From SAR92 clade bacterium H455 (GTDB lineage: Bacteria; Pseudomonadota; Gammaproteobacteria; Pseudomonadales; Porticoccaceae), in NCBI GenBank assembly GCA_024802545.1, contig CP103416.1:1302001-1366000 (forward strand): a stretch of 64,000 nt of DNA, given 5' to 3'. The notes beneath the pieces were generated by a model, which was not told the DNA's origin, did no database searches, and saw nothing but the letters and a program-made list of their open reading frames with translations. Made by a program: the position numbers and the translations under genes. Of the stretch, positions 47,701-62,678 are shown one piece after another (positions within the stretch are counted from its first letter, which is position 1; each line of letters opens with the position of its first letter).

Positions 47701-48176
47701 TGGCGGCTGATACCGCGCCATTAAAGGCCTTTCTGCAGGCAGAATCGGTTTTGACTCTATCAGTCAATGACGATCAGGGGCCTTGGACTGCACCAGTACT
47801 CTATGTGGCTGACGAGGATTTAAATCTCTATTTTCTCTCCTCTTCTTCGACTCGACATATTGCTAGCCTGCCCGAGGATAACCGTATTGCGGCATCGATT
47901 TACAGTGATTACAAAGGTGATTGGCTGGGGATCTGCGGTGTGCAGATGGAGGCGCATATCAGCCAGGTTGACGAGACTGATCGAGCCGCCGCTGCGGCCC
48001 GTTATTTTCAGCGTTTTCCTGAAGTGAAGGCGCTGATCGATAATCCGGCCAACGAACAGGAGCAGCGTATTGGCGCGGCCTTTGGCAAGAGCCACTTTTT
48101 TCGCGTAACGCCGACCTGTGTACGCTTTATTAACAATGCCGATGGCTTTTCATCGCGCAATGAGTGGCGCTTTTAA
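47700..48176 (+). CDS. pyridoxamine 5'-phosphate oxidase-like flavin-binding protein
   Basis: A 158-residue split-barrel FMN-binding protein (TLSVNDDQGPWTAPVLYVAD near the start, then LYFLSSSSTRHIASLPEDNR and IAASIYSDYKGDWLGICGVQ), like UPF0306/YhbP proteins. The exact reaction is unknown. It overlaps ubiX by one base, so the pair is translationally coupled, perhaps because both bind FMN. Confidence 0.85.
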   Translation: MAADTAPLKAFLQAESVLTLSVNDDQGPWTAPVLYVADEDLNLYFLSSSSTRHIASLPEDNRIAASIYSDYKGDWLGICGVQMEAHISQVDETDRAAAAARYFQRFPEVKALIDNPANEQEQRIGAAFGKSHFFRVTPTCVRFINNADGFSSRNEWRF

Positions 48177-48203
48177 TTAAGCCACTCGTAATTAAGCCAC
48201 TCG
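48174..48203 (+). repeat. 15-bp tandem duplication TAATTAAGCCACTCG x2
   Basis: Copies at 48174-48188 and 48189-48203. The first copy begins with the stop codon of the upstream gene. The second runs into the palindrome CACTCGAGTG. Confidence 0.8.
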
Positions 48204-48224
48204 AGTGAGAGTCTTGCCCCTGGC

Positions 48225-51200
48225 TTATTCCTCTAGATTAAATAGCGTCGTATTACCGCCTCGAGCGACCAAATTCTCCGTGCGCGTGCGCTCACTTAAA
48301 AACCAAAGCAGCCAGTGATAGCTGTAATCTTGGCCCCGCTGGGGCCATTCAATCAGCGGAATAATACTCCCGGTACGCTTGGCCATTACTTGCCTGAGGC
48401 TTGAGCTGTTGGCATTCAGGCTGTTGGCCAGTACGCCTTCCACCTGATTATCCAGAACGAGACTGCCAAGCATATCCAGAGGGGCAGTGAGCAGAAGATT
48501 TCTGGGCAAACCGGCTTGTGCATACTTATCCTGCAGACTTTGTAATTTCTCTTGGTGACAGCTGTCAGCGGTGACAACTAAGGAGCAGCCACAGAGCAGG
48601 GCACTGGCAATTTGTTTCTCTGCATCGGCGAATCTATCTTGTTGGGTAACAATCAGTGTCAATACACCGCGGCCTTGCACTGATAGTTGATTCTCTTCCC
48701 CGGTGGGTCCCGGCAGCTCGATAGGGTTGGCTAACTTTTCTCTGGCGACTGCATCAATCTGCTGCAGCCATGTCTGATCTGTGGTGACCTGTTGCAAAAT
48801 AATCAGCCGCGAATCTATAGAGCTGGACTGCCAGTTTTTCAGGGCATGGTGAGCACTTGATGCTGTGGTGCCCTGTCGGGTTTTAGATTGATTAATCGTC
48901 ACATCAAATGATCTGCCTGCAGTGACTGGGATATCTGCCTGCGAGAAACGCTGCATATAGTTGGGACCACCGGCCTTTGGACCTGTGCCCGAGAGCCCAC
49001 GACCACCGAATGGATTAACTCCAACCACCGCACCAACCATGTTGCGGTTGATATAGGTATTGCCGGCAATGGTGTTGCTAAATACCTTCTGGGCAAAGGC
49101 CTGAATGCGGCTGTGAACGCCTAGGGTAAGACCAAAGCCGGTGTTGTTAATCTGTTCAATCACCTTGCCCAGCTGATCAGAATCAAAGCGAACCACATGA
49201 AGTATTGGGCCGAAGACTTCGTCTGTCAGCACGTCGAGGGAATCAATTTCAAAGGCATGGGGTGCGATGAAGCTGCCATTGGCACAGCTGCTGTCCAGCT
49301 CGACTTTTGCAATCAGCTTAGCTTCGCGGTTCATGCGATCTATATGAGTCTGGAGTTCTTTCTGTGCCCCGGAATCGATAACTGGCCCCAGGTCACTGCT
49401 GAGTAAGCGTGGGTCGCCGGCCTTCAGTAAGGCCATGGCGCCTTTAAGCATGTGCAGTAGATTGTCGGCTATATCGGATTGGACAAATAATACGCGGAGG
49501 GCTGAGCAGCGCTGTCCGGCACTTTGGAAGGCCGACATGATTACGTCATCCACTACCTGTTCTAGCAGGGCGCTGGAGTCCACGACCATACAGTTTTGGC
49601 CGCCAGTTTCAGCGATAAAGGGAGTCGGTGGGCCGGGACGCAAAGCCAGCTGCTGGTTGATATGTTGCGCGGTGCCAGTGGAACCGGTGAAGGCAATGCC
49701 GGCAATGCGGCTGTCGCCCAGTACTAGGTTGCCAATCTGCGAGCCGCTGCCGAGCAGTAACTGCAATGCTGCGCCCGGCACTCCGGCCTCGTGGAACAAG
49801 CGCACTGCATAGGCCGCGATGGCCGGTGTTTGGGCCGCTGGTTTGGCCAGCACTGTATTGCCTGCTGCTAGAGCGGCGGCAATCTGGCCAACGGTAATGG
49901 CGAGGGGAAAGTTCCATGGGCTGACGCAGAAAAATACGCCGCGTCCGATTAAACCCTGCAATAATTGAGCTTGCACTGCATAGTAGCGGCAGAAGTCGAT
50001 GGCCTCGCGAACTTCGGAGATGCCGTCATTAACGGTGCGTCCACCCTCAAGGCTGATCACGCCAACCAGCTGACCAAAGTCTCGTTCCATTAGATCTGCG
50101 ACTTTCTCGAGAATCGTCGCTCTAGCACCATGACCTACACCATTCCATGTCGGATAGGCTTGATTGGCCGACTCTAGGGCGCGGAGAATATCGTCATCGT
50201 TGACTCGGGCGCTGTGGCCAATCAACTGGGTCTGATCAATTGGGCTGTAGCAGGGTGTCAGTTCTCTGTCCAAATCCACGCCGTCAATAATCGGTTGCGA
50301 CAGCAGCTGCGGCGTCTTGGCAACCTGGCCTAAGAGCTGCTCGGCTTCCAGTATTGAATCCAGATCTATGCCATGGGCATTCTTGCGCTCTTCTCCCACG
50401 GCCCTAAACATCTCTGGTGGCACAGGAATGCCTTTGTGCTGATAGGGGAAGCAGCTATTGACCTGCTTGCGGTTATCTTCGAGGAGCTCTTCTACTGGAG
50501 TCTGTTCATCGAGGAAGCGATTGACGAAGGAGCTGTTGGCGCCATTTTCCAGTAGTCGTCGCACCAGATAGGGAAGCAGATCGCTGTGGTTGCCTATGGG
50601 AGCATAGACGCGCACAGGGATGGCTTTGGCTGTTTTTGAATTAGCGGTTTTTGATATAGACAGCCTTAGGTTGTCATAGAGAATATGACCCATGCCGTGG
50701 AGGCGCTGAAATTCAAATTCACGGTCCCCGGCAATATGTAGAATCATGGTGGCGGTGTAGGCATTGTGGGTGGCGAATTGCGGGTACACCGCATCCTGTG
50801 CGTCGAGCAAAATCCCGGCGCAGTGCTGGTAGCAGAGATCGGTGTTGGCTTTGCGAGTGAATACTGGGTAGCTGGCAAGTCCCAGTTCTTGGGCATGTTT
50901 GATTTCGGCATCCCAGTAGGCGCCTTTAACAAGGCGTACCATCAGGCGACGATTGGTCTCGCGGGCCAGGCCAATCAACCACTTGGCCGTATCTGGTGCG
51001 CGCTTTTGGTAGGCCTGCAGCACAAAGCCGAGACCCTGCCAGCCATCGAGATCACTGTCTTTGGCTAGGGCTTCAAAGATGTCCATGGAGATGTCGAGTC
51101 TGTAGGCTTCCTCAGCATCTATGGAGAGGCCAATGTTGTATTTCGCCGCTTGGACACAGAGCTGCTTAATGCGTGGCAATAATTCCTTCATTACCAGACC

Positions 51201-51968
51201 GTACTGGGCAAAATAGTAGCGCGGGTGCAGAGCTGAGAGCTTGACCGAGATACCATTGGCGCTGTTGACATCAGTGGCGCCTGAACTCTGACCAATACTG
51301 TCAATGGCGCTGGCATAGGCGGTTAAATAATTACGTGCATCGGAATCGGTGCGGGCACCTTCGCCGAGCATATCAAAGGAGAATTTGGTCTCAACGTGGT
51401 TTTGCTTGGCGCCGCGCTTAAGACCTTCTTGAATGTTGCGCCCGAGCACATACTGACCACCCATTATTTTCATCGCCTGCATTATTGCTGCGCGAATAAC
51501 CGGTTCCCCGGCACTGGCGGTGAGTCGTTTGAGCCAGTTGTCGGTATTCTCGGTGATCTCTGTATCCAGACTCACCACCTGGCCGGTAAGCATCAGTCCC
51601 CAGGTTGAGGCATTTACAAATAGCGATTTGGAATTGTTGCGATGACTACGCCAGTTGCCCGCTTGGATCTTTTCCGCAATTAAGCGATCTGCGGTTAACG
51701 TATCCGGCACTCGCAGCAGTGCTTCTGCCAAGCACATCAATGCCACGCCTTCAGCATTAGAAAGGCCAAATTCAAGCAAAAAGGCATCCAATATTCCGCT
51801 GCTGGATTTGTCTGCGCGACACTGAGTGACCAGATTGCGAGCGTCCTGCAAAATGGCCTCGCGACTGGCGCCAGAGAGTGGATTGCTGTGTAGCAACTGA
51901 GTCACAGCCTGGTGCTCTTCCTGGTGAGTGGCCTGACGTATTTTATCGCGCAGCGCAGTCTGGTTCAT
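48225..51968 (-). CDS. putA: bifunctional proline dehydrogenase / P5C dehydrogenase PutA, without RHH domain
   Basis: A 1247-residue PutA. The N-terminal arm begins MNQTALRDKIRQATHQEEHQ with no ribbon-helix-helix repressor domain. The FAD proline dehydrogenase barrel (about 180-480) includes SALHPRYYFAQYG and RLVKGAYWDAEIK. The NAD-dependent aldehyde dehydrogenase (about 560-1010) has CVSPWNFPLAITVGQIA and the catalytic Cys in SAGQRCSALRVL. The C-terminal about 220 residues form the extra ALDH-like domain. It oxidises proline to glutamate. Lacking RHH, it cannot repress itself as E. coli PutA does; the divergent Lrp-family gene is the likely regulator. Confidence 0.95.
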   Translation of the reverse strand: MNQTALRDKIRQATHQEEHQAVTQLLHSNPLSGASREAILQDARNLVTQCRADKSSSGILDAFLLEFGLSNAEGVALMCLAEALLRVPDTLTADRLIAEKIQAGNWRSHRNNSKSLFVNASTWGLMLTGQVVSLDTEITENTDNWLKRLTASAGEPVIRAAIMQAMKIMGGQYVLGRNIQEGLKRGAKQNHVETKFSFDMLGEGARTDSDARNYLTAYASAIDSIGQSSGATDVNSANGISVKLSALHPRYYFAQYGLVMKELLPRIKQLCVQAAKYNIGLSIDAEEAYRLDISMDIFEALAKDSDLDGWQGLGFVLQAYQKRAPDTAKWLIGLARETNRRLMVRLVKGAYWDAEIKHAQELGLASYPVFTRKANTDLCYQHCAGILLDAQDAVYPQFATHNAYTATMILHIAGDREFEFQRLHGMGHILYDNLRLSISKTANSKTAKAIPVRVYAPIGNHSDLLPYLVRRLLENGANSSFVNRFLDEQTPVEELLEDNRKQVNSCFPYQHKGIPVPPEMFRAVGEERKNAHGIDLDSILEAEQLLGQVAKTPQLLSQPIIDGVDLDRELTPCYSPIDQTQLIGHSARVNDDDILRALESANQAYPTWNGVGHGARATILEKVADLMERDFGQLVGVISLEGGRTVNDGISEVREAIDFCRYYAVQAQLLQGLIGRGVFFCVSPWNFPLAITVGQIAAALAAGNTVLAKPAAQTPAIAAYAVRLFHEAGVPGAALQLLLGSGSQIGNLVLGDSRIAGIAFTGSTGTAQHINQQLALRPGPPTPFIAETGGQNCMVVDSSALLEQVVDDVIMSAFQSAGQRCSALRVLFVQSDIADNLLHMLKGAMALLKAGDPRLLSSDLGPVIDSGAQKELQTHIDRMNREAKLIAKVELDSSCANGSFIAPHAFEIDSLDVLTDEVFGPILHVVRFDSDQLGKVIEQINNTGFGLTLGVHSRIQAFAQKVFSNTIAGNTYINRNMVGAVVGVNPFGGRGLSGTGPKAGGPNYMQRFSQADIPVTAGRSFDVTINQSKTRQGTTASSAHHALKNWQSSSIDSRLIILQQVTTDQTWLQQIDAVAREKLANPIELPGPTGEENQLSVQGRGVLTLIVTQQDRFADAEKQIASALLCGCSLVVTADSCHQEKLQSLQDKYAQAGLPRNLLLTAPLDMLGSLVLDNQVEGVLANSLNANSSSLRQVMAKRTGSIIPLIEWPQRGQDYSYHWLLWFLSERTRTENLVARGGNTTLFNLEE

Positions 51969-52141
51969 GGGTGCCTACCTATCTTTTAATCTAATTAAGA
52001 TATGGCATTTTCACTTAATCATTGCAGTATATGTCTCCATAGTTTGTAGTAATCCAGTTAAATAAACTGCCAATTTAGATTTAATAGACTATTGTGCTGC
52101 TAAGGTATATGGATTTTTGGGTGTTTTATGGAGTGCAGAAA

Positions 52142-52618
52142 ATGAAAACAGTAACTGATCTTGATCGTACTGATCGACGGATTCTCAATATATTGCAACG
52201 GCAGGGACGCATCGCCAATGTGGATCTGGCTAAACAGGTCAATTTGACCCCGACGCCCTGTCTTGAGCGGGTTAAGCGATTGGAAAAAGAGGGCTTTATT
52301 ACCCAGTATGTGGCGTTGTTGGATCCGGTGAAAGCCAATGCTGCACTGTCCGCCTATATTGAAGTGCAACTGGAGAGCACAACCACTGAGGCTATTGCCT
52401 TATTTGATCAGCAGATGCTGGCCCTAGATGAGGTGCTGGAATGTCAGCTGGTGGCTGGTGGCTTCGATTATTTGATCAAGATACGGGTAGAGGATATGCA
52501 GCATTATCAGCGGTTTCTCGGGGGCAAGCTATCTGGGATTAAAGGCATTAGCCAAACCCACACCTATGTGGTGATTCATGATGTGAAATCGGAAACGGCG
52601 ATTAAGATTAATCCCTAG
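52142..52618 (+). CDS. Lrp/AsnC-family regulator, divergent from putA
   Basis: A 158-residue Lrp-type protein: N-terminal winged HTH (LDRTDRRILNILQRQGRIAN, VDLAKQVNLTPTPCLERVKR) and a C-terminal RAM/ligand-binding ferredoxin-like domain (VLECQLVAGGFDYLIKIRVE). The ATG at 52142 is chosen because GGAG lies about nine bases upstream and the domain starts there. Divergent placement with putA is the arrangement of PutR/Lrp activators of proline oxidation in many proteobacteria. Confidence 0.9.
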   Translation: MKTVTDLDRTDRRILNILQRQGRIANVDLAKQVNLTPTPCLERVKRLEKEGFITQYVALLDPVKANAALSAYIEVQLESTTTEAIALFDQQMLALDEVLECQLVAGGFDYLIKIRVEDMQHYQRFLGGKLSGIKGISQTHTYVVIHDVKSETAIKINP

Positions 52619-52685
52619 GGGCGGGGTTTAGTCTGGTTCAAGGGCTGATAATAAGGGCTTTTGAAGATGGCGTTTAAAATTAGCC

Positions 52686-53762
52686 TTATAAATAAACCCG
52701 CATGACGCGCCCTGGCATCCGCGTCAGCAGTTCATAGCCGATGGTATCGCAGTAGCTGGCCACTTCATTAACCGGCAAGTCGGGTCCCCAGAGCACTGCC
52801 TTATCGCCAATCGCAACTTCTGTTAACTCTGTAACATCAACCGTAATCATATCCATAGAGACACGTCCCACCAGCGGGCAGCGAATACCATTGATCAGCA
52901 CTGGCGTGCTGTTGGGGGCATTGCGTGGATAGCCGTCGCCATAGCCAACGGTAATGGTTGCGATGGTGGAGTCTCGCTGAGCAGTCCAGTTGGCGGTATA
53001 ACCTACGGACTCGCCAGCAGCGATTGTGCGCAGGGAAATCACTGCAGATTCAAATGACATCACTGGCTTCAGTAAATCGGCATTTTCCTGGGCTACAGCA
53101 AAGGGGGAGTTGCCATAGAGCATATAGCCCGGACGCTGCCATTCCCGCCGGGCTTTGGGCCAGGCCAAAATGGCCGCTGAGTTGGCTAGGCTCTGCAGTG
53201 CAGTCACTGGCGCGCAGGCTTTAAAGGTATCAATCTGCGTAGAGGTGGCCTCACTGTCCAAATCATCGGCACAGGCAAAGTGCGAGGTGAATACTATCGG
53301 CTGCCTAATATTGCGGCTGCTATTGAGGCTGCGGTAGACCTCGGCAACATCTTCGGGCTGAAATCCCAGACGGTGCATGCCGGTGTCGACGCCGAGCCAA
53401 ACAGTTAGGGGTGCAGGCAGGTCTGCATTAATTATCGCTTCTTTTTGCTGATGATTTTCAACCATCACCCAGAAGCCTTTAGTGGCCGCCACCTTGAGCT
53501 CCGAGGCTTCAAAGGCGCCCTCCAACAGCAGTATGGGCTGTTTAATTCCTGCATCGCGCAGTTCCAGTGCTTCTTCAATACAGGCAACACCAAAGGCTGG
53601 GGCAATATCTTCAAGAGACTGGGAGACTTTCACTGCGCCATGGCCGTAGGCATTGGCCTTGACCATGGGGATGGTCTTTGACTCCGGTGCTAATGATTGC
53701 GCCAACTGATAGTTGTGGCGCAGTGCCTGAAGGTCGATAACTGCTCTGGTGGGTCTGGACAT
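52686..53762 (-). CDS. alr: alanine racemase
   Basis: A 358-residue PLP enzyme with MVKANAYGHGAVKVSQ (PLP Lys35), the catalytic Tyr in AGESVGYTANW (about 256) and the C-terminal DMITVDVTE, GYELLTRMPGRVMRVYL. It interconverts L- and D-alanine. It sits immediately downstream of a D-amino acid transaminase gene and beside putA, which suggests a catabolic (DadX-like) rather than, or in addition to, a cell-wall role. Confidence 0.95.
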   Translation of the reverse strand: MSRPTRAVIDLQALRHNYQLAQSLAPESKTIPMVKANAYGHGAVKVSQSLEDIAPAFGVACIEEALELRDAGIKQPILLLEGAFEASELKVAATKGFWVMVENHQQKEAIINADLPAPLTVWLGVDTGMHRLGFQPEDVAEVYRSLNSSRNIRQPIVFTSHFACADDLDSEATSTQIDTFKACAPVTALQSLANSAAILAWPKARREWQRPGYMLYGNSPFAVAQENADLLKPVMSFESAVISLRTIAAGESVGYTANWTAQRDSTIATITVGYGDGYPRNAPNSTPVLINGIRCPLVGRVSMDMITVDVTELTEVAIGDKAVLWGPDLPVNEVASYCDTIGYELLTRMPGRVMRVYL

Positions 53763-53774
53763 GCTGTTACCTAT

Positions 53775-53810
53775 TAGTCAAATCTGGTAGTCAAATCTGG
53801 TAGTCAAAGC
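53775..53810 (+). repeat. 13-bp tandem repeat TAGTCAAATCTGG
   Basis: Two exact copies (53775-53787, 53788-53800) and a third partial one (53801-53810) fill the spacer between alr and the transaminase gene. The last copy touches the transaminase stop. Confidence 0.8.
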
Positions 53811-54667
53811 TAGTAATTAAATTTTGCGGCGGAGTAGAGAGTCTGGGCCGCTAACCAGATATCGCCAATGCTGCCATCGCCAACTGGCTTGCCGTCGATT
53901 TCAGTGATCGGCGCGATTTCCTTTGAGGAGCTGGTAATCCAGACTTCGTCTGCGTTGGCTACCTCATCCATGGTGACTATGCGCTCTTGCACAGCAATCT
54001 GGCCATCGTTGCGCAGTACGTCGAGAATAATCTGGCGGGTGATGCCTGGGAGTTTTTGATTGTCCAAAAGTGGTGTGATCACTGTGCCATTTTTAACAAT
54101 AAAGACATTACAGGCGCTGGCTTCGGTGAGCTGATTGTCGGCATTAAATAGCAGAGTCTCGTCACTGCCTTGTGCGTAGCCATGCTGAAAATGCAGCACA
54201 TTGCCGAGCAGCGCAGTGGATTTGATCTGACAGCGATCCCAGCGGAGGTCGCGGGTAGTGGAGGCTTTTTTCGCTGTAACCCTGCTCTTGTCGGCGATGG
54301 GTGCCGGGGCTATTGCAAAGGTATAGGCAAACACTGTCGGCGCTATATTTTCTGGAAAAGCGTGAAAGCGCTTGGTATCTGTGCCGCGACTCACATGGAG
54401 GTAGATGCCCAGATTGCCGGGATCATTCTCGCTGATCAAGCGATTGCAGACTGTGGCCCAATCGTCTATGGACCAGTCCAGCTGAATACCAATTGCCTCG
54501 AGGCCGTCTTTCATGCGCGCAATATGAAGGGCAAAACCGACCATTTTCCCGGCATAGGATGGCACTACTTCATAGATGCCGTCACCGAACAAAAAACCGC
54601 GATCCATTGGCGATATTTTGGCCTGTTCTATGGGCATATATTCGCCATCTAAAAACGCAATACTCAT
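53810..54667 (-). CDS. dat: D-amino-acid transaminase (class IV)
   Basis: A 285-residue fold-type IV PLP enzyme: MDRGFLFGDGIYEVVPSYAG (about 21-40), PLP Lys149 in RCQIKSTALLGNVL, and LTEASACNVFIVKNG about 195. The YEVVP/Y and GDGIYE pattern with RGTDTKR favours D-alanine:2-oxoglutarate transaminases over the branched-chain (IlvE) group. It would convert D-alanine and 2-oxoglutarate to pyruvate and D-glutamate. Located just upstream of alr. Confidence 0.85.
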   Translation of the reverse strand: MSIAFLDGEYMPIEQAKISPMDRGFLFGDGIYEVVPSYAGKMVGFALHIARMKDGLEAIGIQLDWSIDDWATVCNRLISENDPGNLGIYLHVSRGTDTKRFHAFPENIAPTVFAYTFAIAPAPIADKSRVTAKKASTTRDLRWDRCQIKSTALLGNVLHFQHGYAQGSDETLLFNADNQLTEASACNVFIVKNGTVITPLLDNQKLPGITRQIILDVLRNDGQIAVQERIVTMDEVANADEVWITSSSKEIAPITEIDGKPVGDGSIGDIWLAAQTLYSAAKFNY

Positions 54668-54871
54668 ATTGATACCTTGTTGGACTGGGGCAATTTAGTG
54701 CTTATTTTAAGGCTTTGGTGCAGTACTTTTATTAACCTGCTGGTGTTTTAAAAATGGTATCAGCGAGGCGGATTGCACGCAAAGCAAATTGATTGGTATA
54801 AAGATCTTATTTTCTACTAAAACGGTGTTTTGTCGGGCTGATTCTAAGCTTGGCGAGAAAATAACCTGTCA

Positions 54872-55708
54872 TCAGCAAAATCCACCTAATTTTCTCAGGT
54901 CTTTAATCAGTTTCTCGCTAATATCAGACCCTAAGCTGTCCTCGGTCAGGCTGTTTTTTCTACTCACGCCATCGACACTGCCACGCGCCGAAAGATATTG
55001 CAGTGTAGCCAGATTATCCCAGCCCAGCAGCATATCTTGCTCTCTCAACACTGACAGCATGGCGATCAAACCATGGGCTGCCCAGTTGGATACATCGGCA
55101 ATCAGCAGTTCATCGCAGCAGGTGGCTGAGGGAATAATATTGAGTTGTGCAAGAGTGTCGGCAACATTGCCCATACCGATTTCATTGCCTCCGTCGCCAA
55201 TGCCGATAGTGGGGCAACTGGCGGTGCGTAAAAAGTAGTCGAAGCTGGCGCAGGCAGAACTTATATCTTCGCCGCGCATATTGTAGTACTTACCATCTGC
55301 GGCCATGCCCGGACGTTCAATGGATATCACCAGAGAGGGCTGATAATGGTGCAGGGCATTTTTGGCTTCAACCCTACTGACAGCGGGTTCGCCGACGCTA
55401 ATTTTGTGCACCCGAAAGTCACTGGCGATGGCATCGGCCAATGGTGCGCCACAGACAAGCACTGGTGTGGTGCCTAGGGTTTCTAAAACTCTATAAAGTG
55501 CGATAGCGCCAACTGGACCATCGGTTTCATAGGTGCCCGCAACGGGAAAACCGGTGCCGATTAACACTGTCCCTTTAGCGCTTAACAGCAGTTGGGCGGC
55601 GCGCAAATAGTAACCGGGCACCAGAGCTGCTTGCAGTGTCTGCATACCCCGGGGATTGCGCGCCACTAAAAGGTTTTCGATATGAGTGCTGAGGATCAGA
55701 TTATTCAT
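54872..55708 (-). CDS. DUF4392 protein, homologous to the C-terminal half of D-glutamate cyclase
   Basis: About 278 residues from MNNLILSTHI. The segment KGTVLIGTGFPVAGTYETDG (about 44-63) is a nucleotide- or phosphate-loop-like turn, GAIALYRVLETLG follows, and IGIGDGGNEIGMGNV (about 186-200) is the most conserved-looking part. These match DUF4392, the C-terminal domain of mammalian D-glutamate cyclase (DGLUCY/C14orf159), which turns D-glutamate into 5-oxo-D-proline. The start is set so that it overlaps pxpC by eight bases. The N-terminal half of the mammalian protein corresponds to the gene at 58389. Confidence 0.82.
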   Translation of the reverse strand: MNNLILSTHIENLLVARNPRGMQTLQAALVPGYYLRAAQLLLSAKGTVLIGTGFPVAGTYETDGPVGAIALYRVLETLGTTPVLVCGAPLADAIASDFRVHKISVGEPAVSRVEAKNALHHYQPSLVISIERPGMAADGKYYNMRGEDISSACASFDYFLRTASCPTIGIGDGGNEIGMGNVADTLAQLNIIPSATCCDELLIADVSNWAAHGLIAMLSVLREQDMLLGWDNLATLQYLSARGSVDGVSRKNSLTEDSLGSDISEKLIKDLRKLGGFC

Positions 55709-56672
55709 CGAGCTCAACTTGCTCCAGAACGGTGTCAGCAAAACGCTGTTGATCGAGCACTAGCAAATTGTGCGCCTGCTCTATGCTGATAGCTTCAAAG
55801 CGTAATTTGCCGCCGGGCAATAGTTGCGCCAATTGGCCAATATCCAGAGAGAGCACAGAGCCCAATTTGGGATAGCCGCCAATGGTTTGACGATCATTGA
55901 GCAGCACTATGGGTTGACCATCTGCAGGTACTTGAATAGCACCAAGGCAGATACCTTCAGAGAGAATACCATCCACTGTCGGTTTAATTGCTGGGCCCTT
56001 AAGTCTAAAACCCATGCGATCGCTGCTCTCGGTGACCTGATATTCAGAGCTAAAAAATACTTGTTTATTAATATTGCTAAAGGCCTGCTGCTGGTACCCC
56101 AGCACCACTCGCAAGATTACGCTGTTAGCGCTGTAGTCTGGACGGTGGCTATAGGGCACACGCAGCTGCGGTGTAGAGAGGCTCTCTGAGCAGGGTATAA
56201 AGTCTCCTGTTTGCAGTGGCCTACCATCGCGATGTAATCCACCCAAGGCTTCTCTGGGCACTGTGGCGACACTATTAAATATTGGCTCTATGGTAAAGCC
56301 ACCGGCAACGGCGAGATAGGCGCGACTGCCCGATGTGGCAAATCCCAGTTTGATACGATCCCCCGCTTTCACCTGGTGGCTCTGCCATAACGCTCGAGAT
56401 TGCCTATTAATACTTAGTGGAATATTTGCCCCAGTAACTGCGATGGTTGTATTGACCTTGGATTCTAAAACCAAACCGCCGACGGTGATTTCGATAGCGG
56501 CAGCGCTCTGTTGGTCGCCGCAGAGCCGGTTAGCCCAGCGAAAGGCGTCGCGATCCAAGGGGCCGCCGCTGGTCAGGCCAATACGGTGCTGGCCAAAGCG
56601 CCCGGCGTCTTCAATCAAGCTAAATATGCCTGGCTGGATAATTTTAAAACCAGTGTTTTTATTTGTGCTCAT
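55701..56672 (-). CDS. pxpC: 5-oxoprolinase subunit PxpC (KipA-like)
   Basis: About 323 residues of the biotin-dependent-carboxyltransferase-like fold: GIFSLIEDAGRFGQHRIGLT (about 14-33), SGGPLDRDAFRWANRLCGD and SDRMGFRLKGPAI. The ATG at 56672 overlaps the pxpB stop as ATGA, so it is preferred over one four codons upstream. With PxpA and PxpB it forms the ATP-dependent 5-oxoprolinase that opens 5-oxoproline to glutamate. Confidence 0.93.
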   Translation of the reverse strand: MSTNKNTGFKIIQPGIFSLIEDAGRFGQHRIGLTSGGPLDRDAFRWANRLCGDQQSAAAIEITVGGLVLESKVNTTIAVTGANIPLSINRQSRALWQSHQVKAGDRIKLGFATSGSRAYLAVAGGFTIEPIFNSVATVPREALGGLHRDGRPLQTGDFIPCSESLSTPQLRVPYSHRPDYSANSVILRVVLGYQQQAFSNINKQVFFSSEYQVTESSDRMGFRLKGPAIKPTVDGILSEGICLGAIQVPADGQPIVLLNDRQTIGGYPKLGSVLSLDIGQLAQLLPGGKLRFEAISIEQAHNLLVLDQQRFADTVLEQVELDE

Positions 56673-57373
56673 GCCCATGTCCATAAGAGCCCACCCATAT
56701 CCAGATAGGTCTCTCTGTCGATGGCTTTAAAGCGCACTAGATCGCCGACTTGAACTGGCATGCTAGGTTCTGCGCTGGGGTCGAACATTAACTCTGGGCA
56801 GAGGCCAATCAGATTCCAGCCACCTGGCGACTCTGCCGGATAGACTGCTGTCTGGCGGTCGGCAATGGCCACTGCACCTCTGGGGACTTTTTGTCGCGGG
56901 GTGGCGAGCCGCGGTGCGGCTATGCGTGGGTCCAGTTCGCCGAGGTAGGCAAAGCCTGGGGCAAAGCCGATGGCATAGACGCTGTATTCCGATTGCTGGT
57001 GAATTCTGATGACTTCTTCAATAGAGAGGCCGGCGTTGTCGGCCAGTGCTTGCAGGTCGGGTCCTGACTCTGTGCTGTAGTAAACCGGGAGTGTCACCAG
57101 GGCTCCTGATTGGCTGTTATCTGTCGCAATAGGTGTGGCCAATGCGCGGCGAATTGCACCGCGTACTGCATGGTGATCGGTTTTAAAGGGGTCGTAAATC
57201 ACTAGTATTGAAGCGTAAGAGGGCACTAGGTCGATCAGCTGCGTGGCGAGACTAGTGCGCAGCTGTGCGGCGGTTGCGGCTATGGCTGAGGCAATCGACT
57301 GGCTGGGCGCATCGCCAAAATAGACGATAAGAGAATTCTCTCCAGCGATGGCAATGTTGTGTAGATCATGCAT
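56669..57373 (-). CDS. pxpB: 5-oxoprolinase subunit PxpB (KipI-like)
   Basis: A 234-residue allophanate-hydrolase-subunit-1-like protein with the family segments SEYSVYAIGFAPGFAYLGEL (about 128-147), RLATPRQKVPRGAVAIADRQ and TAVYPAESPGGWNLIG. It overlaps pxpA by one base and pxpC by four. In Bacillus the homologue KipI also inhibits a kinase, a role not suggested here. Confidence 0.93.
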   Translation of the reverse strand: MHDLHNIAIAGENSLIVYFGDAPSQSIASAIAATAAQLRTSLATQLIDLVPSYASILVIYDPFKTDHHAVRGAIRRALATPIATDNSQSGALVTLPVYYSTESGPDLQALADNAGLSIEEVIRIHQQSEYSVYAIGFAPGFAYLGELDPRIAAPRLATPRQKVPRGAVAIADRQTAVYPAESPGGWNLIGLCPELMFDPSAEPSMPVQVGDLVRFKAIDRETYLDMGGLLWTWA

Positions 57374-58107
57374 TACGAATTAATTAACTGACGAATTTCT
57401 TGGATGGCTTTAACGCCTTCTGGATTGTCGCCGTGTACGCAGAGGGAGTCAGCTTGAAGTTCAAGACGGTGACCACTAATGGTGGTGACAGAGCCTTCGG
57501 TTTTCAGTTGCTGGACCTGGGCGAGAATTTTTTCACGATTGTGCACTGCACCTTCTTTGGCTCGGGAGAGCAGGGCACCATTGTCGTCGTAACAGCGGTC
57601 GGCAAAGGCTTCGAAGATAACCTCGATGCCAAACATCTTGGCTTCTTCCCTGTGGGTTTCAGCATCAGGTGTGGCTTGCAACATAAAGGCCAGTGACAGA
57701 TGGGATTCGGCGATAGCTTCCATGATTGCGCTGCGAATATGGCCGTTGGCCATCATGTCATTGTAAAGGGCACCGTGGGGTTTGACGTAGGTTACGGGTA
57801 CGCCGAGATTCTGCGCCATGCCTGTGAGAGCGGCGATTTGATATTGAACTATGGCGATGATTTCAATGGCAGGCAGTTTCATTGAGCGACGGCCAAAACC
57901 GGCGAGATCTGGATAGCTGGGGTGCGCACCGACAATGACATTGTTACGTTTCGCAGAGAGCAGAGTTTTTTTGATGACCACTGGATCGCCGGCGTGAAAA
58001 CCGCAGGCGATATTGGCTTGATCTATATGGGGCATGACTTGGTCGTCGAGGCCCATGGTCCAGGCGCCGAAGCTTTCGCCGAGATCGCAATTTAATAGTA
58101 GTGCCAT
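57373..58107 (-). CDS. pxpA: 5-oxoprolinase subunit PxpA (LamB/YcsF family)
   Basis: A 244-residue LamB/YcsF protein: MALLLNCDLGESFGAWTMGL start, ANIACGFHAGDPVVIKKTLL (about 33-52), VGAHPSYPDLAGFGRRSM and VKPHGALYNDMM. First gene of pxpABC. The operon order pxpA-pxpB-pxpC-DUF4392 on the minus strand is tightly packed and its promoter must lie in 58108-58388. Confidence 0.94.
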   Translation of the reverse strand: MALLLNCDLGESFGAWTMGLDDQVMPHIDQANIACGFHAGDPVVIKKTLLSAKRNNVIVGAHPSYPDLAGFGRRSMKLPAIEIIAIVQYQIAALTGMAQNLGVPVTYVKPHGALYNDMMANGHIRSAIMEAIAESHLSLAFMLQATPDAETHREEAKMFGIEVIFEAFADRCYDDNGALLSRAKEGAVHNREKILAQVQQLKTEGSVTTISGHRLELQADSLCVHGDNPEGVKAIQEIRQLINS

Positions 58108-58192
58108 ATTGGGTTCCTAAATGCTGCTGGTTTGTTGGGCCGCTCTGTATTAGATAGCGCTTTTTAAAACAGTCCGGTGCGGCGAAGTATTA

Positions 58193-58327
58193 AATTGCCT
58201 TCAGCATCGACTGCATGATTTGCCTTGTTACCTACGCTGCGGAACTCGCTATAACTCAAACAGGTCCTCGCGCTCTACGGTAACAAATCAAATCATAAGC
58301 GCAGCCTAATTGATGCTGAAGGCAATT
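58193..58327. repeat. 135-bp imperfect palindrome (MITE- or ERIC-like element)
   Basis: The ends AATTGCCTTCAGCATC (58193-58208) and its exact reverse complement (58312-58327) form 16 perfect pairs. Further inward, ATGATTTG (58215-58222) pairs with 58289-58296 and TTGTTACC (58225-58232) with 58279-58286, leaving a centre with GGAACTCGCTATAACTC. The whole element can fold into one long interrupted hairpin. It lies in the spacer upstream of pxpA and downstream of the YcsI-like gene. Confidence 0.8.
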
Positions 58328-58388
58328 CAATAGTTCTTTTAAGTGGCTGTTGCCATCCTGCCTCAGGCTACTCACTTCTTAGAATCGC

Positions 58389-59201
58389 TCAATCACTCAC
58401 CACCGCAAGATCGCTATTCTTCAAATCCGTCACCAGCATACAGCCAGGACTATGGGTTATACAAAAGGGCAACTTCGCTGCCTCCAAGGCAACCTGCGGT
58501 GTCACACCACAGGCCCAAAATAGCGGCATCTCGCCGTCTTTAATGGTTACCGCATCGCCAAAATCTGGATGATCAATGTCAGTAATACCTATATGTTCTG
58601 GGTTGGCATAATGGATTGGCTCGCCATGTACCGAGGGATAGCGCTTACAAATTTCCGCGGCGCGCAGTGCGTCTTCCGGCACAAAGGGCCTCATGCTAAC
58701 AACCATCTCACCGGCAAAGGGGCCGGCGGGGGTGCAGTCTATATTGGTTCTGTACATGGGGACATTGACTGCTTCGCTGACATTGCGCACTTCGAGGCCG
58801 TCGGCAATCAATGCCTCTTCAAAGGAGAATGAACAGCCGAGTAAAAAGGCAACTAGATCATCCCGCCAGAGTGCCGAGATATCGTTGACTTCACTGACCA
58901 CCTGGCCATGCTCGAAGACTTTATAGCTTGGTATATCTGTGCGGATATCAATATCTTCACCCAGTGTCGGCAGTGTAAAAACACCGGGTTCTGATGTGGC
59001 AATCAGTGGGCAGGGTTTGGGGTTGCTTTGACAAAACTGCAGAAAATCCGCTGCTGAATCAGCAGGCAGAATAACTAAATTACACTGCACGTAGCCATTG
59101 CAATGCCCTGAGGTGTTACCGCTGTGCTCGCCGCCGCGGATTTTTTTACGCAGCTGCTGCGGTGATAGCGTCTGTTCAATGCTGTTATTGGGCTCTTTCA
59201 T
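58389..59201 (-). CDS. YcsI/DUF1445 protein, homologous to the N-terminal half of D-glutamate cyclase
   Basis: About 270 residues from the ATG at 59201; a TTG four codons earlier is possible. Segments [20 protein letters not shown] (about 31-50), [40 protein letters not shown] (about 149-168) and [16 protein letters not shown] are typical of the UPF0317 (YcsI, DUF1445) family. This is the N-terminal domain of mammalian D-glutamate cyclase. In Bacillus ycsI also sits with ycsF and kipIA. Separated from pxpA by 281 bases that hold the palindromic element. Confidence 0.87.
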
Positions 59202-59298
59202 GGGCAATTCCAACTAATGTTTAGCGAGTCTAACAAAGCTTCTGGGTGAACTCATTAGCTGTACCCCAGAGGTACTATTATTAAAGTGGGATCATAGC

Positions 59299-59904
59299 CT
59301 AGCGCCAGTGCTTCGCCCAGCTGTCAAGTACGCGCTCTGAATACCAGTACTGACCATAGCTGCCATTGTAGCGGGCTAGGGCATCTGCAAGGCGCCCCTT
59401 CTCTCTATCGAGATAGTATTTGAGGATGGTGCAGCCATAGCGCAGGTTGGTTTGTATATTGATTAGGTTGTCTTCTGGACGTCCGATTTCATGTTTCCAG
59501 AAAGGCATGATTTGCATTATTCCCTGGGCGCCGGCAGAGGAAACCGCATAACCATCAAAGTGACTTTCCACTTCAATTAATGCGAGAACAATCTCAGGGG
59601 AGAGTCCTGCACGAGAGGCTTCGCTATGAATGAGTTTTAGTAGGGAGATACGCTGGGTAGGGTCTTTAACTAATCGGGCCAGTGCCGGTTCTTTTTCCAC
59701 GAGCCACACTTGGGCATCGTATTGATTGTCAAAACTATCCGCTTCGCTGGCGGCCTGCCTAAGCAGGGATAAGAGTGCCGGGTCCAGAGTAGGTTTCTCG
59801 AGAGAAACTGCGCTGGTTGATATAGACAGGAGAACAAAGGCCACAGCAATCCACTGCGGCCATAATAAATGTCTACTTAGTAATCTTCTCGGCAATAAAA
59901 TCAT
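59299..59904 (-). CDS. lytic transglycosylase, SLT domain
   Basis: A 201-residue exported protein. A signal-like N-terminus ([18 protein letters not shown]) precedes an SLT lysozyme-like domain (about 90-195) with catalytic Glu in [20 protein letters not shown] and the [14 protein letters not shown] motif. It cleaves peptidoglycan glycan strands in the periplasm. Its start overlaps the end of proS by 32 bases, unusually long, so a TTG or GTG start a few codons downstream is also possible. Confidence 0.88.
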
Positions 59905-61597
59905 CCAGCTTGTCCATAGCTATATGTTGATTTTCTGGTTCCCGGCGATTGCGGTATTCGACGTTTCCCTCAGCCAAACCCCGGTCGCCAATAACGATGC
60001 GATGGGGAATACCAATCAGTTCGATATCTGCCAACATGCCACCGAGACGGGCTTTGGGCTCGTCCATAAACAGCACTTCACAACCGGCACCAACTAGTTT
60101 GTTATAGAGCGCCAGACAGGTTTCAGCAACCAGCTCAGACTTGTGCATGTTGATCGGCACTATAGCGACCTGGAACGGTGCGATCGACTCTGGCCAGATA
60201 ATGCCGTTGTCATCGTGGTTCTGTTCTATAGCGGCGGCAACAATACGACTCACTCCTATACCATAGCAGCCCATGGACATGGCGCAGTCTTTACCGTTCT
60301 CGTCGAGCACTGTGGCTTTCATAGCTTCGCTGTATTTGGTGCCGAGCTGGAAGATATGGCCCACTTCAATGCCGCGCTTAATTTCCAATACGCCTTTGCC
60401 ATCTGGGCTTGGGTCGCCGGCGATGACATTGCGGATATCAGCGACTGTGAACTCGCCACAGTCGCGCTGCCAGTTGACGCCGGTGAGATGATAGCCGTCG
60501 CGATTGGCGCCACAGACAAAGTCGCTGAGCTGCGCGGCCCAGTGATCCACAACTATGGGCAGGTTGAGATTCACCGGCCCAATAGATCCCGGCGAGCAGT
60601 TCAATGTGCTTTTAATCTGTTCCTCAGTGGCGAAAGTCACCTCAGTTTCCAAGCCTAAGGCGCGCTGAGCTTTAACTTCATTGAGTTCATGATCACCACG
60701 GATCATCAGACCATAGAGTTGAGTTTTTCCCTCTTTATCTTCGGCGCTAACAATTAGGGCCTTCAGCGTTTTCTCAGCGCTAGTGTCGATAAACTCGCAG
60801 AGCTGCTTAATCGTGTGCACGCCGGGGGTCGCCAATTCGGCCATTTCGTCTGTGCCGGGCAGGGCAGTTTCGCTGGGTGCCAGTGCGTCAGCTTTCTCTA
60901 TATTGGCGGCGTAATCACTCTCGCTGGAAAAGACGATTGCGTCTTCCCCGGAATCTGCCAATACATGAAATTCATGGGAGACACTGCCACCGATGCTGCC
61001 GGTGTCGGCCAACACTGCGCGATAGACCAGACCGGTGCGATCGAAAATCGTTGAATAGGTCTTGTACATCAGGTCGTAAGTCTCTTGCAAAGACGCACTG
61101 TCTATATGGAAGGAATAGGCATCCTTCATGCAAAACTCTCTGGTGCGCATAACACCAAAGCGTGGACGGCGCTCATCGCGAAACTTGGTTTGGATTTGAT
61201 AGAAGTTAGCCGGCAACTGTTTGTAGCTGCGAATTTCATTGCGCACAATGTCGGTGATCACTTCTTCGTGAGTCGGCCCGAGGCAGAACTCGCGACCATG
61301 ACGGTCCTTAATACGCAGTAATTCGGGGCCAAACTGTCCCCAGCGTCCAGATTCTTCCCAAAGATCCGCAGGCTGTACTACCGGCATCATCATTTCTAAT
61401 GCACCGGATCTGTCCATCTCTTGACGGACAATGGCTTCGACTTTACGAAATACCCGCAGGCCAAGAGGCAGCCAAGAGTAGAGGCCTGAGGCCACTTTAC
61501 GGATCATGCCGGCACGCAGCATCAACTGGTGGCTGATCACTTCGGCATCGGCGGGAGATTCTTTTTTTGTTGAAATCAGGTATTGGCTGGCGCGCAT
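59873..61597 (-). CDS. proS: prolyl-tRNA synthetase
   Basis: A 574-residue bacterial-type ProS: class II motif 1 region ([20 protein letters not shown]), motif 2 ([20 protein letters not shown], about 140-159) and motif 3 ([20 protein letters not shown], about 444-463), with the editing YbaK-like insertion between motifs 2 and 3 (about 225-385, including [16 protein letters not shown]). It charges tRNA-Pro and hydrolyses Ala-tRNA-Pro. Length is as expected. Confidence 0.97.
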
Positions 61598-61699
61598 GGT
61601 TTCTCTTACACTGCTGGTAGTTGATTTAGGCGGTCATTTTACGGCTCAGAGCTGTCGCCGTATAGAGAGTAAGCAGAGATAAGCATAGATGAGGACAAA

Positions 61700-62128
61700 A
61701 TGTTTCAATTAGATCCCCGATTAGAAGCTGATACGCTGTTGCTGGGTGCTTTTCCGTTGAGTTTATTACTGCTCAGTAAAGACGCCAATTACCCCTGGTG
61801 TATTTTGGTGCCCAAGCGCGAGGGCATGCGCGAGATCTATCAGCTTAACCAAGCCGATCGACAGCAGCTATTGCAGGAGTCCTGTCTACTGGCCGAGACA
61901 TTATCTGACGAATTTGGGGCGGACAAAATAAATGTTGCGACTATAGGTAATATGGTCCCGCAACTGCATATGCACCATGTGGTGCGATTTGAAAATGATG
62001 CTGCCTGGCCCGGACCGGTCTGGGGCGCGGTGGCTGCAGCGACCTATGCACCGCAGCTGTTAACTGAGACAGCTGCACGTGTTGTCGCTGCGCTTGCACC
62101 ATTGGGACTGCAAACTGAGCTGGCCTGA
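61700..62128 (+). CDS. HIT-domain nucleotide-binding protein
   Basis: A 142-residue histidine-triad protein. The triad appears as LHMHHVVRF (about 94-102), a variant of HxHxHxx with Met/His spacing, and KDANYPWCILVPKREGMREI (about 29-48) is the nucleotide-binding sheet. Family members hydrolyse dinucleoside polyphosphates or AMP conjugates. It is divergent from proS and convergent with the HU-like gene. Confidence 0.88.
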   Translation: MFQLDPRLEADTLLLGAFPLSLLLLSKDANYPWCILVPKREGMREIYQLNQADRQQLLQESCLLAETLSDEFGADKINVATIGNMVPQLHMHHVVRFENDAAWPGPVWGAVAAATYAPQLLTETAARVVAALAPLGLQTELA

Positions 62129-62150
62129 TTGGCGCCCGACGTAGCGGCTG

Positions 62151-62678
62151 TTACTGGGCCATATCTTTTAGGCCTTTTAAAGCATGGACTTTCACCGCGA
62201 CTGACGCAGGGCGTGCTTTAAAGGTAGTCTCTTTGCCAGTGAAAGGGTTTATACCTTTATAGGCTTTCTTGGCCGGACGTTTAACTGTGTGAATTTTAAT
62301 TAGGCCGGCAAGCACAAATTCACCCACTGAGCGCTTTTTAACATGGCGTTCCACCAGGGTTGCCAGTTCAGTGAGCAGAGTATTGACTTGTTTGCGAGTC
62401 AAACCCGAGTTGGTGGCCAGTTCACTGATGATTTGAGTCTTGCTATAGCGTTCGCGCACAGCAGTGATTTTTTTGCTCGGTGCGATCTTGGCGGCAGTAG
62501 CTTTTTTTGCCGGAGCTTTTTTTACTGCAACTTTTTTAGGGGCTTTTGTCACAGTCGATTTTTTAACGCTGGCGGTTTTTTTAGCAGCGGATAGAGTCTT
62601 TTGCTTAGCCGGTTTTTTAGCCTTTTTAGCCTTTTTAGCAGTTGAGGTTGCTTTCGCAGATCCTTTCTTAACAGCCAT
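62151..62678 (-). CDS. HU/IHF-like DNA-binding protein with histone-H1-like N-terminal tail
   Basis: About 175 residues. The start MAVKKGSAKATS is supported by AAGGAAA upstream. Residues about 5-75 are Lys/Ala/Pro-rich with KKAKKAKKPAK and KKAPAKKAT repeats, resembling eukaryotic H1 tails. Residues about 76-175 form an HU/IHF-like fold (YSKTQIISELATNSGLTRKQ, then FVLAGLIKIHTVKRPAKKAY and the GINPFTGKETTFKARPASVA arm). It probably compacts or organises the nucleoid. The tail is the odd feature. Confidence 0.88.
   Translation of the reverse strand: MAVKKGSAKATSTAKKAKKAKKPAKQKTLSAAKKTASVKKSTVTKAPKKVAVKKAPAKKATAAKIAPSKKITAVRERYSKTQIISELATNSGLTRKQVNTLLTELATLVERHVKKRSVGEFVLAGLIKIHTVKRPAKKAYKGINPFTGKETTFKARPASVAVKVHALKGLKDMAQ

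Follow-up and report, generated by a model that had tools for sequence, protein, structure and literature searches.

Separate genes for the two domain families of mammalian D-glutamate cyclase flank 5-oxoprolinase genes in a recurring gammaproteobacterial operon: a possible lactam route for D-glutamate

Why should the two domain families that make up a mammalian D-glutamate cyclase be encoded, as separate genes, on either side of a bacterial 5-oxoprolinase? The question is raised by a 64,000-nucleotide stretch of DNA from SAR92 clade bacterium H455 (contig CP103416.1, positions 1,302,001 to 1,366,000; here called the window), in which a DUF1445 gene and a DUF4392 gene enclose pxpA, pxpB and pxpC. 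The mammalian enzyme DGLUCY (9030617O03Rik / C14orf159) carries the same two families and makes 5-oxo-D-proline, and its loss raises D-glutamate, or D-Glu (PMC5339696). Unlike DGLUCY, the window has two distinct genes lying 2.7 kb apart, not one polypeptide, with pxpABC between them, and relatives fuse DUF4392 to PxpC. A sequence-only reading of the locus had proposed a two-subunit cyclase acting in a catabolic route. Judged from comparative genomics, the two genes belong together functionally and with 5-oxoproline; their linkage is observed directly, and the chemistry set out below is proposed.

The two families named by that reading hold up in profile searches. The minus-strand frame 54872-55741 matches PF14336 (GLUCM-like_C) over positions 4-291 of 291 (E 2.2e-70, 237.9 bits, cut-off 27.9), and the minus-strand frame 58389-59213 matches PF07286 (D-Glu_cyclase) over 1-143 of 143 (E 2.2e-64, 216.1 bits, cut-off 25) and also the NCBIfam model NF003969, "putative hydro-lyase" (404.7 bits, over its cut-off of 324). 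The preferred starts are ATG 55708 for DUF4392 and ATG 59201 for DUF1445, and each family has a single match in the whole 2.96-Mb genome. All three PxpABC subunits are present together (PF03746, PF02682, PF02626), although pxpC, above the TIGR00724 cut-off, falls below that of the NCBIfam equivalog NF045499 (215.6 vs 500 bits). The minus-strand block at 52686-59201 is transcribed in the order DUF1445, pxpA, pxpB, pxpC, DUF4392, dat (D-amino-acid transaminase), alr (alanine racemase), so that the split of the two domain families around pxpABC, with the transaminase and the alanine racemase adjoining, is confirmed by the profiles. The gene ends of pxpA, pxpB, pxpC and DUF4392 overlap, the ATG of DUF4392 sharing 8 nt with the end of pxpC at its stop, and the gap of 281 bases between DUF1445 and pxpA contains an inverted repeat.

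The arrangement was followed by profile searches in 71 family genomes, 30 genomes of the window's genus, 396 genomes of a phylum sample and 14 well-known control genomes, together with 80 named loci that represent the best 80 of 542 relatives and are hence close kin (L077, L092 and L094 duplicate the contigs of G018, G029 and G010). DUF4392 and DUF1445 were each found in 33 of the 71 family genomes, both of them in 32, a single one in two and neither in 37. The two single-domain genomes are contig-end cases: in G008 a contig begins at the DUF4392 start, and in G020 the contigs break off in pxpB and resume 82 bases ahead of dat. Of the 71 genomes 52 carry pxpA, among them all but one of the 33 that have DUF4392. 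In the phylum sample DUF1445 occurs in 76 genomes, DUF4392 in 11 and pxpA in 193; nine of the 11 have DUF1445, nine have pxpA, and five of the nine genomes with both DUFs, the window's own included, carry them in one short stretch (the others being G189, G251, G321 and G349). The controls gave matches to PF14336 in 0/14, to PF07286 in 1/14 (B. subtilis, presumably ycsI) and to PF03746 in 5/14. Fisher tests of DUF4392 with DUF1445 and with pxpA gave 6.7e-18 and 2.3e-5 in the family and 9.3e-6 and 0.03 in the phylum sample, values that were not taken as decisive because the genomes are related; tree counts were used instead.

Around the 80 named loci, DUF1445 was found in 69, PxpA in 73, PxpB in 74, PxpC in 78, DAT in 71 (two on the opposite strand) and Alr in 36. 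PxpC and DUF4392 are spaced by -60 to 100 nt in 67 of 78 loci and fused in five more, DUF1445 and PxpA show the same operon-like spacing (-60 to 100 nt) in 61 of 68, and DUF4392 and DAT lie within 300 nt of each other (<=300 nt) in 47 of 69. The order DUF1445-pxpABC-DUF4392-dat thus recurs across Gammaproteobacteria, and joint occurrence in the family together with the order repeated in the named loci makes it more than a chance arrangement. Several departures were recorded on the way. PxpA is missing between DUF1445 and PxpB in L130, and in both L130 (7513-9943, plus strand) and L043 (9430-12017, minus strand) DUF1445 stands in the place of pxpA, directly before pxpB-pxpC; in G189, the genome of L043, pxpA is located elsewhere. 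In L160, L161, L164 and L167, PxpB and PxpC are fused in a single frame (535-560 aa), which DUF1445 separates from pxpA. Two candidates were rejected: an apparent DUF1445 fusion in L110 and L126 (a 691-aa frame), which overlaps a distinct 543-aa frame that is acyl-CoA-ligase-like by eye, and a supposed extra enzyme encoded ahead of dat, after DUF4392, in Oceanospirillaceae, which in the loci inspected looks LysR-like from its start, as judged by eye.

The tree counts concern the loss of the pair and its fusion to PxpC. Seven genomes (G033, G024, G032, G016, G021, G034 and G025) retain pxpA-pxpB-pxpC-dat-alr behind proS, with dat in two pieces in G032, and whole-genome profile searches found neither DUF anywhere in them; in G050 both DUFs are broken and pxpABC-dat-alr are open. 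On a tree of PxpA+B+C+Alr from 38 of the 52 pxpA-bearing family genomes, joint loss takes three changes with all rows and two when ungrouped rows are omitted. That DUF1445 and DUF4392 vanish together, and the three pxp genes between them stay, is strong evidence of one shared function of the two, separable from pxpABC and from dat, which is likewise retained where the DUF pair is lost. As for the fusion, PxpC and DUF4392 form a single open frame in nine family genomes (eight of 587-607 residues, the ninth, G001, cut by a contig end), and G011 holds a tenth in a broken version. Two changes account for the fusion on a tree of 109 DUF4392 sequences, from which L036, L037, L041 and L055 were omitted by choice along with short rows and near-copies, and both are forced by starred branches; on the 38-genome tree it again takes two changes, one of them forced. 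Trees of PxpC and DUF1445 marked by DUF4392 presence show clustering, with 2 and 5 changes, which is confounded by kinship. Co-occurrence, joint losses and the PxpC fusion together uphold the functional coupling, proposed earlier, that ties the two DUF genes to one another and to pxpABC. Separately, in G031 (L067:7958-8512) DUF4392 and the adjoining dat both contain stops, by sequencing error or decay.

The serial route from D-Glu through 5-oxoproline to glutamate, as the sequence-only reading had written it, lacks support on stereochemical grounds. Hydrolysis leaves C-alpha unchanged and turns 5-oxo-D-proline back into D-Glu, so that a chain ending in PxpABC would be a futile ATP cycle unless the lactam were epimerised. 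A literature search found no enzyme named as a 5-oxoproline or pyroglutamate racemase or as a 5-oxo-D-prolinase. DUF1445, as the one unassigned member of the operon and with its 5-oxoproline context, becomes a candidate for inversion of C-alpha in the ring form.

For the closure of the ring, DUF4392 is the favoured protein. It matches the structures of TON_0340 from Thermococcus onnurineus, also a DUF4392 protein (4dwz and others), over residues 50-280 (E about 4e-34) and carries all six of its metal-ligand positions, E61, D63, E131, D172, E176 and D246, five of which are kept in 111/111 distinct DUF4392 sequences and D246 in 110/111. Reversible closure of an amide ring, as catalysed by dihydroorotase, is chemistry for which a two-metal site would be suited. 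DUF4392 occurs without DUF1445 in G127 and G173 of the phylum sample and in archaea (PMC5132392), and its conservation extends to both vertebrates and invertebrates, that of DUF1445 being limited to vertebrates (PMC5339696); it is from this occurrence on its own that DUF4392 is favoured, and a metal-dependent D-glutamate cyclase is the best reading of what the protein may be.

DUF1445 leads a wider life. Its solved relatives, the UPF0317 proteins PSPTO_5379 (2pif, E 3.4e-81) and Atu3911 (3db9, E 6.7e-80), resemble it over nearly the full length, the window protein being set apart by its tie to DUF4392. Since DUF1445 is so much the commoner of the two in the phylum sample (76 vs 11 of 396), it would have work of its own. 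Forty loci centred on it, drawn from 40 of the 76 phylum genomes that carry it and spanning about 5 kb per side, so that more distant pxp genes are missed, show no adjoining DUF4392 (G197, among them, has one elsewhere). Of these loci, 17 hold pxp genes and seven others a hydantoinase/oxoprolinase-type protein unrelated to Pxp, two of the seven having been checked by Pfam. With one or the other oxoprolinase type nearby in 24 of the 40, DUF1445 seems tied to 5-oxoproline use, and it appears to belong there whichever type is present. Other neighbours are a TRAP binding protein like that of locus L169 (18 loci), a LivJ-like protein (6) and LysR (26). The solved structures nearest to the L169 binding protein are 2pfy and 2pfz (334 and 313 bits), which we take to be the pyroglutamate-binding DctP entries of B. 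pertussis. Two B. pertussis DctP proteins were crystallised with pyroglutamic acid (PMC5812351). The window DUF1445 contains C123 (in GCSF), C231 (in ACGVTPQ) and H250, and in an alignment of 164 rows, which include genomes fetched twice, all three are kept in 161, all are replaced in three and none is replaced singly, a unit that is suggestive of a two-thiol racemase. The three exceptional rows (L195, L198 and L199, from G225, G227 and G278 of family f61) form a side branch that probably has another function.

Put together, these elements suggest a pathway in which DUF4392, as a two-metal and probably Mn-dependent enzyme, would close D-Glu to 5-oxo-D-proline; DUF1445, as a separate enzyme, would most likely convert the D lactam to the L lactam by a site of two cysteines with a histidine; and PxpABC would open 5-oxo-L-proline to L-Glu at the expense of ATP, the net result being an ATP-driven, one-way conversion of D-Glu to L-Glu. 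In the window's genus, where dat seems to have taken the place of glutamate racemase as the maker of wall D-Glu, this would drain surplus or recycled D-Glu, and in some relatives it would complete the use of foreign peptidoglycan. In its general form, a conserved operon that turns over D-glutamate through the lactam, with DUF4392 as the cyclase, DUF1445 acting on 5-oxoproline and PxpABC opening it, we hold the proposal tentatively, at somewhat less than an even chance. Its sharper form, in which DUF1445 is a 5-oxoproline racemase, the three proteins cyclise, epimerise and reopen, and the mammalian cyclase is a fusion of the first two enzymes, is possible and at the same time doubtful.

A number of observations weigh against the proposal. 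Full-length mouse DGLUCY, with both domains, gave 5-oxo-D-proline and no L-Glu, and if its DUF1445 domain racemised 5-oxoproline some L-lactam would be expected, of which there is no mention in the available part of the paper (PMC5339696). A DUF4392 protein on its own has been reported to show just one activity, the weak Mn-dependent phosphatase activity of TON_0340, unlike the cyclase proposed for the window (PMC5132392), and a literature search found no assay in which D-Glu was given to either protein apart from the other. The stereospecificity of the window PxpABC for the L lactam is assumed. The residues C123, C231 and H250 could equally be a metal or structural site, and their loss is restricted to one family, two of the three rows having been fetched deliberately after the first. 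We know of no racemase activity in DUF1445. For the hydantoinase/oxoprolinase-type neighbours 5-oxoproline is no more than a putative substrate, their best NCBIfam model being a caprolactamase under its cut-off, and the TRAP neighbour in L182 has just a distant resemblance to 2pfz (60 bits). At the level of gene order, four of the 80 named loci (L115, L118, L120, L131) have no DUF1445 within at least 7 kb upstream, and among the nine phylum genomes with both DUFs, the two genes are widely separated or on different contigs in two (G113, G197), and DUF4392 lies in giant proteins some kb from DUF1445 in two others (G329, G442). Lastly, the joint loss of the pair with pxpABC kept also suits a two-subunit enzyme.

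That alternative, a two-subunit or obligate-partner cyclase of DUF1445 and DUF4392 beside a PxpABC that accepts the D lactam or merely adjoins, was the explanation of the sequence-only reading. In mammals a single protein with cyclase activity carries the two domains (PMC5339696), both or neither are found in 69 of the 71 family genomes with the other two cut by contig ends, each of the three joint losses left the intervening genes in place, and in G349 and G321 the DUF genes are adjacent without pxpABC between them. The loss of the pair together in the window's family speaks for two subunits of one cyclase, but the phylum-wide excess of DUF1445 means that it mostly works without DUF4392, DUF4392 in turn lacks DUF1445 in G127, G173 and archaea (PMC5132392), its fusion partner in relatives is PxpC, and opening of the D lactam merely returns D-Glu; a subunit relation of this kind is fairly unlikely. 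A parallel arrangement can also be envisaged, in which DUF4392, with DUF1445, interconverts D-Glu and 5-oxo-D-proline and PxpABC repairs 5-oxo-L-proline, so that both spontaneous lactams are cleared and D-Glu goes back to the wall or to dat. With dat as the probable source of D-Glu in the genus, both lactams should arise spontaneously there, and pxpABC persists without the pair in seven genomes, so that the functions are separable. However, the ring is the favoured side of the D-Glu/lactam equilibrium, so an ATP-free opening requires a pull, and DUF1445 near oxoprolinases without DUF4392 is left unexplained; we regard this arrangement as unlikely.

The PxpC fusion, seen in nine family genomes, would also fit a DUF4392 that is no cyclase at all and serves the ATP-dependent 5-oxoprolinase, with its phosphorylated intermediate, as an accessory Mn phosphatase, in keeping with the activity of TON_0340 (PMC5132392). 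Yet the kcat/KM of TON_0340 for AMP is just 1.9 x 10^2 per M per s (PMC5132392), most genomes with pxpA do without DUF4392 (pxpA in 193 of 396, DUF4392 in 11, both in nine), and D-Glu accumulates in the DGLUCY knockout (PMC5339696), which leaves the phosphatase role very improbable.

The role of dat was also reconsidered. The window transaminase falls under both NCBIfam D-amino-acid transaminase cut-offs (222.1 vs 277.45 and 226.7 vs 320 bits), but these are still its top-scoring NCBIfam models, and its nine best solved relatives are by name D-amino acid or D-alanine aminotransferases. A relative of it (E up to 1e-30) occurs in 30/30 genus genomes and 43/71 family genomes, with internal stops in G031 and G032. 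Glutamate racemase (TIGR00067) is over cut-off in 29/71 family genomes and in 0/30 of the genus, where two weak matches score 35.1 and 24.4 bits. Across the 71 family genomes dat and the racemase occur together in four and are both missing in three, namely G001 (where the contig ends inside DUF4392), G037 and G039 (with two sub-cut-off racemase pieces); the Fisher value of DAT against MurI is 6.0e-12, which kinship among the genomes likewise keeps from being decisive. In G040 and G041 the order is proS-dat-alr, with neither pxp nor DUF genes. With dat in every genus genome and the racemase over its cut-off in none, dat most likely supplies the D-Glu of the wall, and it probably makes cell-wall D-Glu in the window's genus; the earlier notion of dat as feeder of a catabolic route gives way to this role as the more likely. 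In 37 operon- or DUF4392-bearing genomes tested (33 of the 80 loci genomes and four others), the racemase is over cut-off in 11, so dat-linked operons also exist alongside it.

The source of the D-Glu may differ among relatives. In three of ten DUF4392 loci outside the family (L040, L043 and L045, from three genera), the pair lies inside a cluster for N-acetylmuramic acid (MurNAc) or peptidoglycan sugars. All three have a kinase-MurQ fusion (over the TIGR00274 cut-off in L040 and L045, by Pfam alone in L043) and a sodium:solute symporter; GH3 is present in L043 and L045, and the NamZ exo-muramidase with an RpiR regulator in L040 and L045. The dat gene adjoins DUF4392 in L040 and L043 and lies ~8 kb away beside NamZ in L045, where an FAD-linked oxidase overlapping DUF4392 possibly acts on D-lactate released by MurQ. 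NamZ was found in 0/30 genus genomes, the window's own included, and in 1/71 of the family. The idea that peptidoglycan serves as food is therefore supported in part, for some relatives only: three class-level relatives have a MurNAc/peptidoglycan-catabolic cluster, and against it stands the lack of NamZ in the genus.

Table 1. Features of the window in and around the operon, in order of transcription.
Feature	Position	Strand	Evidence
DUF1445 / UPF0317 gene (DGLUCY N-terminal domain homologue)	58389..59201	-	PF07286 + NF003969
Inverted-repeat element between DUF1445 and pxpA	58184..58336	.	25-nt arms, 103-nt centre
pxpA, 5-oxoprolinase subunit A (LamB/YcsF)	57373..58107	-	PF03746 E 2.1e-88; NF003816 over cut-off
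pxpB, 5-oxoprolinase subunit B	56669..57373	-	PF02682 E 3.7e-69; TIGR00370 over cut-off
pxpC, 5-oxoprolinase subunit C	55701..56684	-	PF02626 E 3.7e-85; TIGR00724 over cut-off
DUF4392 gene (DGLUCY C-terminal domain homologue)	54872..55708	-	PF14336 E 2.2e-70
D-amino-acid transaminase (dat), class IV aminotransferase	53810..54667	-	PF01063; closest solved structures
Alanine racemase (alr)	52686..53762	-	PF01168 + PF00842; TIGR00492 over cut-off

Upstream of the block lie a lytic-transglycosylase-like gene and proS (names assigned by eye) and a divergent lrp and putA follow on the downstream side. Among the named genomes found, that of the marine gamma proteobacterium HTCC2207 is nearest, with 87% identity in DUF4392, the nearest records being possibly absent from the set. 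The inverted-repeat element is ~150 bp long, has arms that are 92% complementary and exact over 16 nt, interrupts no gene and resembles a small mobile or repeat element; 34789-34804 carries one weaker match to an arm (2 mismatches), an 18-nt segment from the centre of the element was found in 0/197 compared loci, and an Rfam scan of 48000-62500 gave no match. A promoter and terminator scan was uninformative (promoters 4 vs 7.0 expected, terminators 13 vs 7.2 expected). Of the giant DUF4392 proteins, that of G329 (L036:5680-16401, minus strand) is a 3573-aa frame with two PF14336 matches and DUF4781, adjoining a Fic-domain gene and a DUF1445 gene, and that of G442 (L037:7077-11315, plus strand) is a 1412-aa frame with a C-terminal DUF4392 and no other Pfam match, DUF1445 lying ~5 kb upstream of it beside a TRAP binding protein.

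The split of the two domain families is itself not new and was dropped as a claim of novelty: TON_0340-like and Atu3911-like (DUF1445) genes have been noted as fused in higher animals, perhaps with sequentially linked functions (Sohn 2016, PMC5132392), and GLUCM_HUMAN has been listed with mainly split gut-microbial homologues, in a table row that we read as 0 full-length and 6 split (Rendina 2024, PMC11580864). What the comparison adds is the recurring operon order, the PxpC-DUF4392 fusion, the joint losses, the pattern of dat and racemase in the genus, the nearness of lone DUF1445 genes to either of two oxoprolinase types, and the MurNAc-cluster setting of the pair in three distant relatives. 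A literature search found no paper on an operon with pxpABC and dat, on the PxpC fusion or on the joint losses, although the original PxpABC paper (Niehaus 2017), which lay outside its coverage, may discuss gene neighbours. An operon of B. subtilis likewise has pxpABC together with a Mn importer (ycsG) and ycsI (PMC10448178), but unlike the window B. subtilis has no PF14336 match in the control search. In marine bacteria there is also the DgcN-DgcA pathway, ascribed to Yu in 2023, in which D-Glu is reportedly modified, the derivative racemised and then hydrolysed to L-Glu, by acetylation, it is said, rather than lactam formation, and with other genes. It offers a chemical parallel. The pathway is treated in PMC12363236 and PMC10845958, the former of which terms it an irreversible racemization pathway.

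Bacterial cell walls, and with them marine organic matter, contain D-Glu as a major component. If the proposed pathway is true, it would be the counterpart of DgcN-DgcA, would partly make up for the racemase that these bacteria lack, and would give some marine bacteria a second ATP-driven means of inverting D-glutamate. A literature search found no paper that assigns a role of its own to each domain of the human enzyme, and the operon offers small, separately encoded DGLUCY domains beside a product-using enzyme, with their division of labour open to assay. The proposal would also assign UPF0317, a family present in 76 of the 396 sampled genomes of the phylum.

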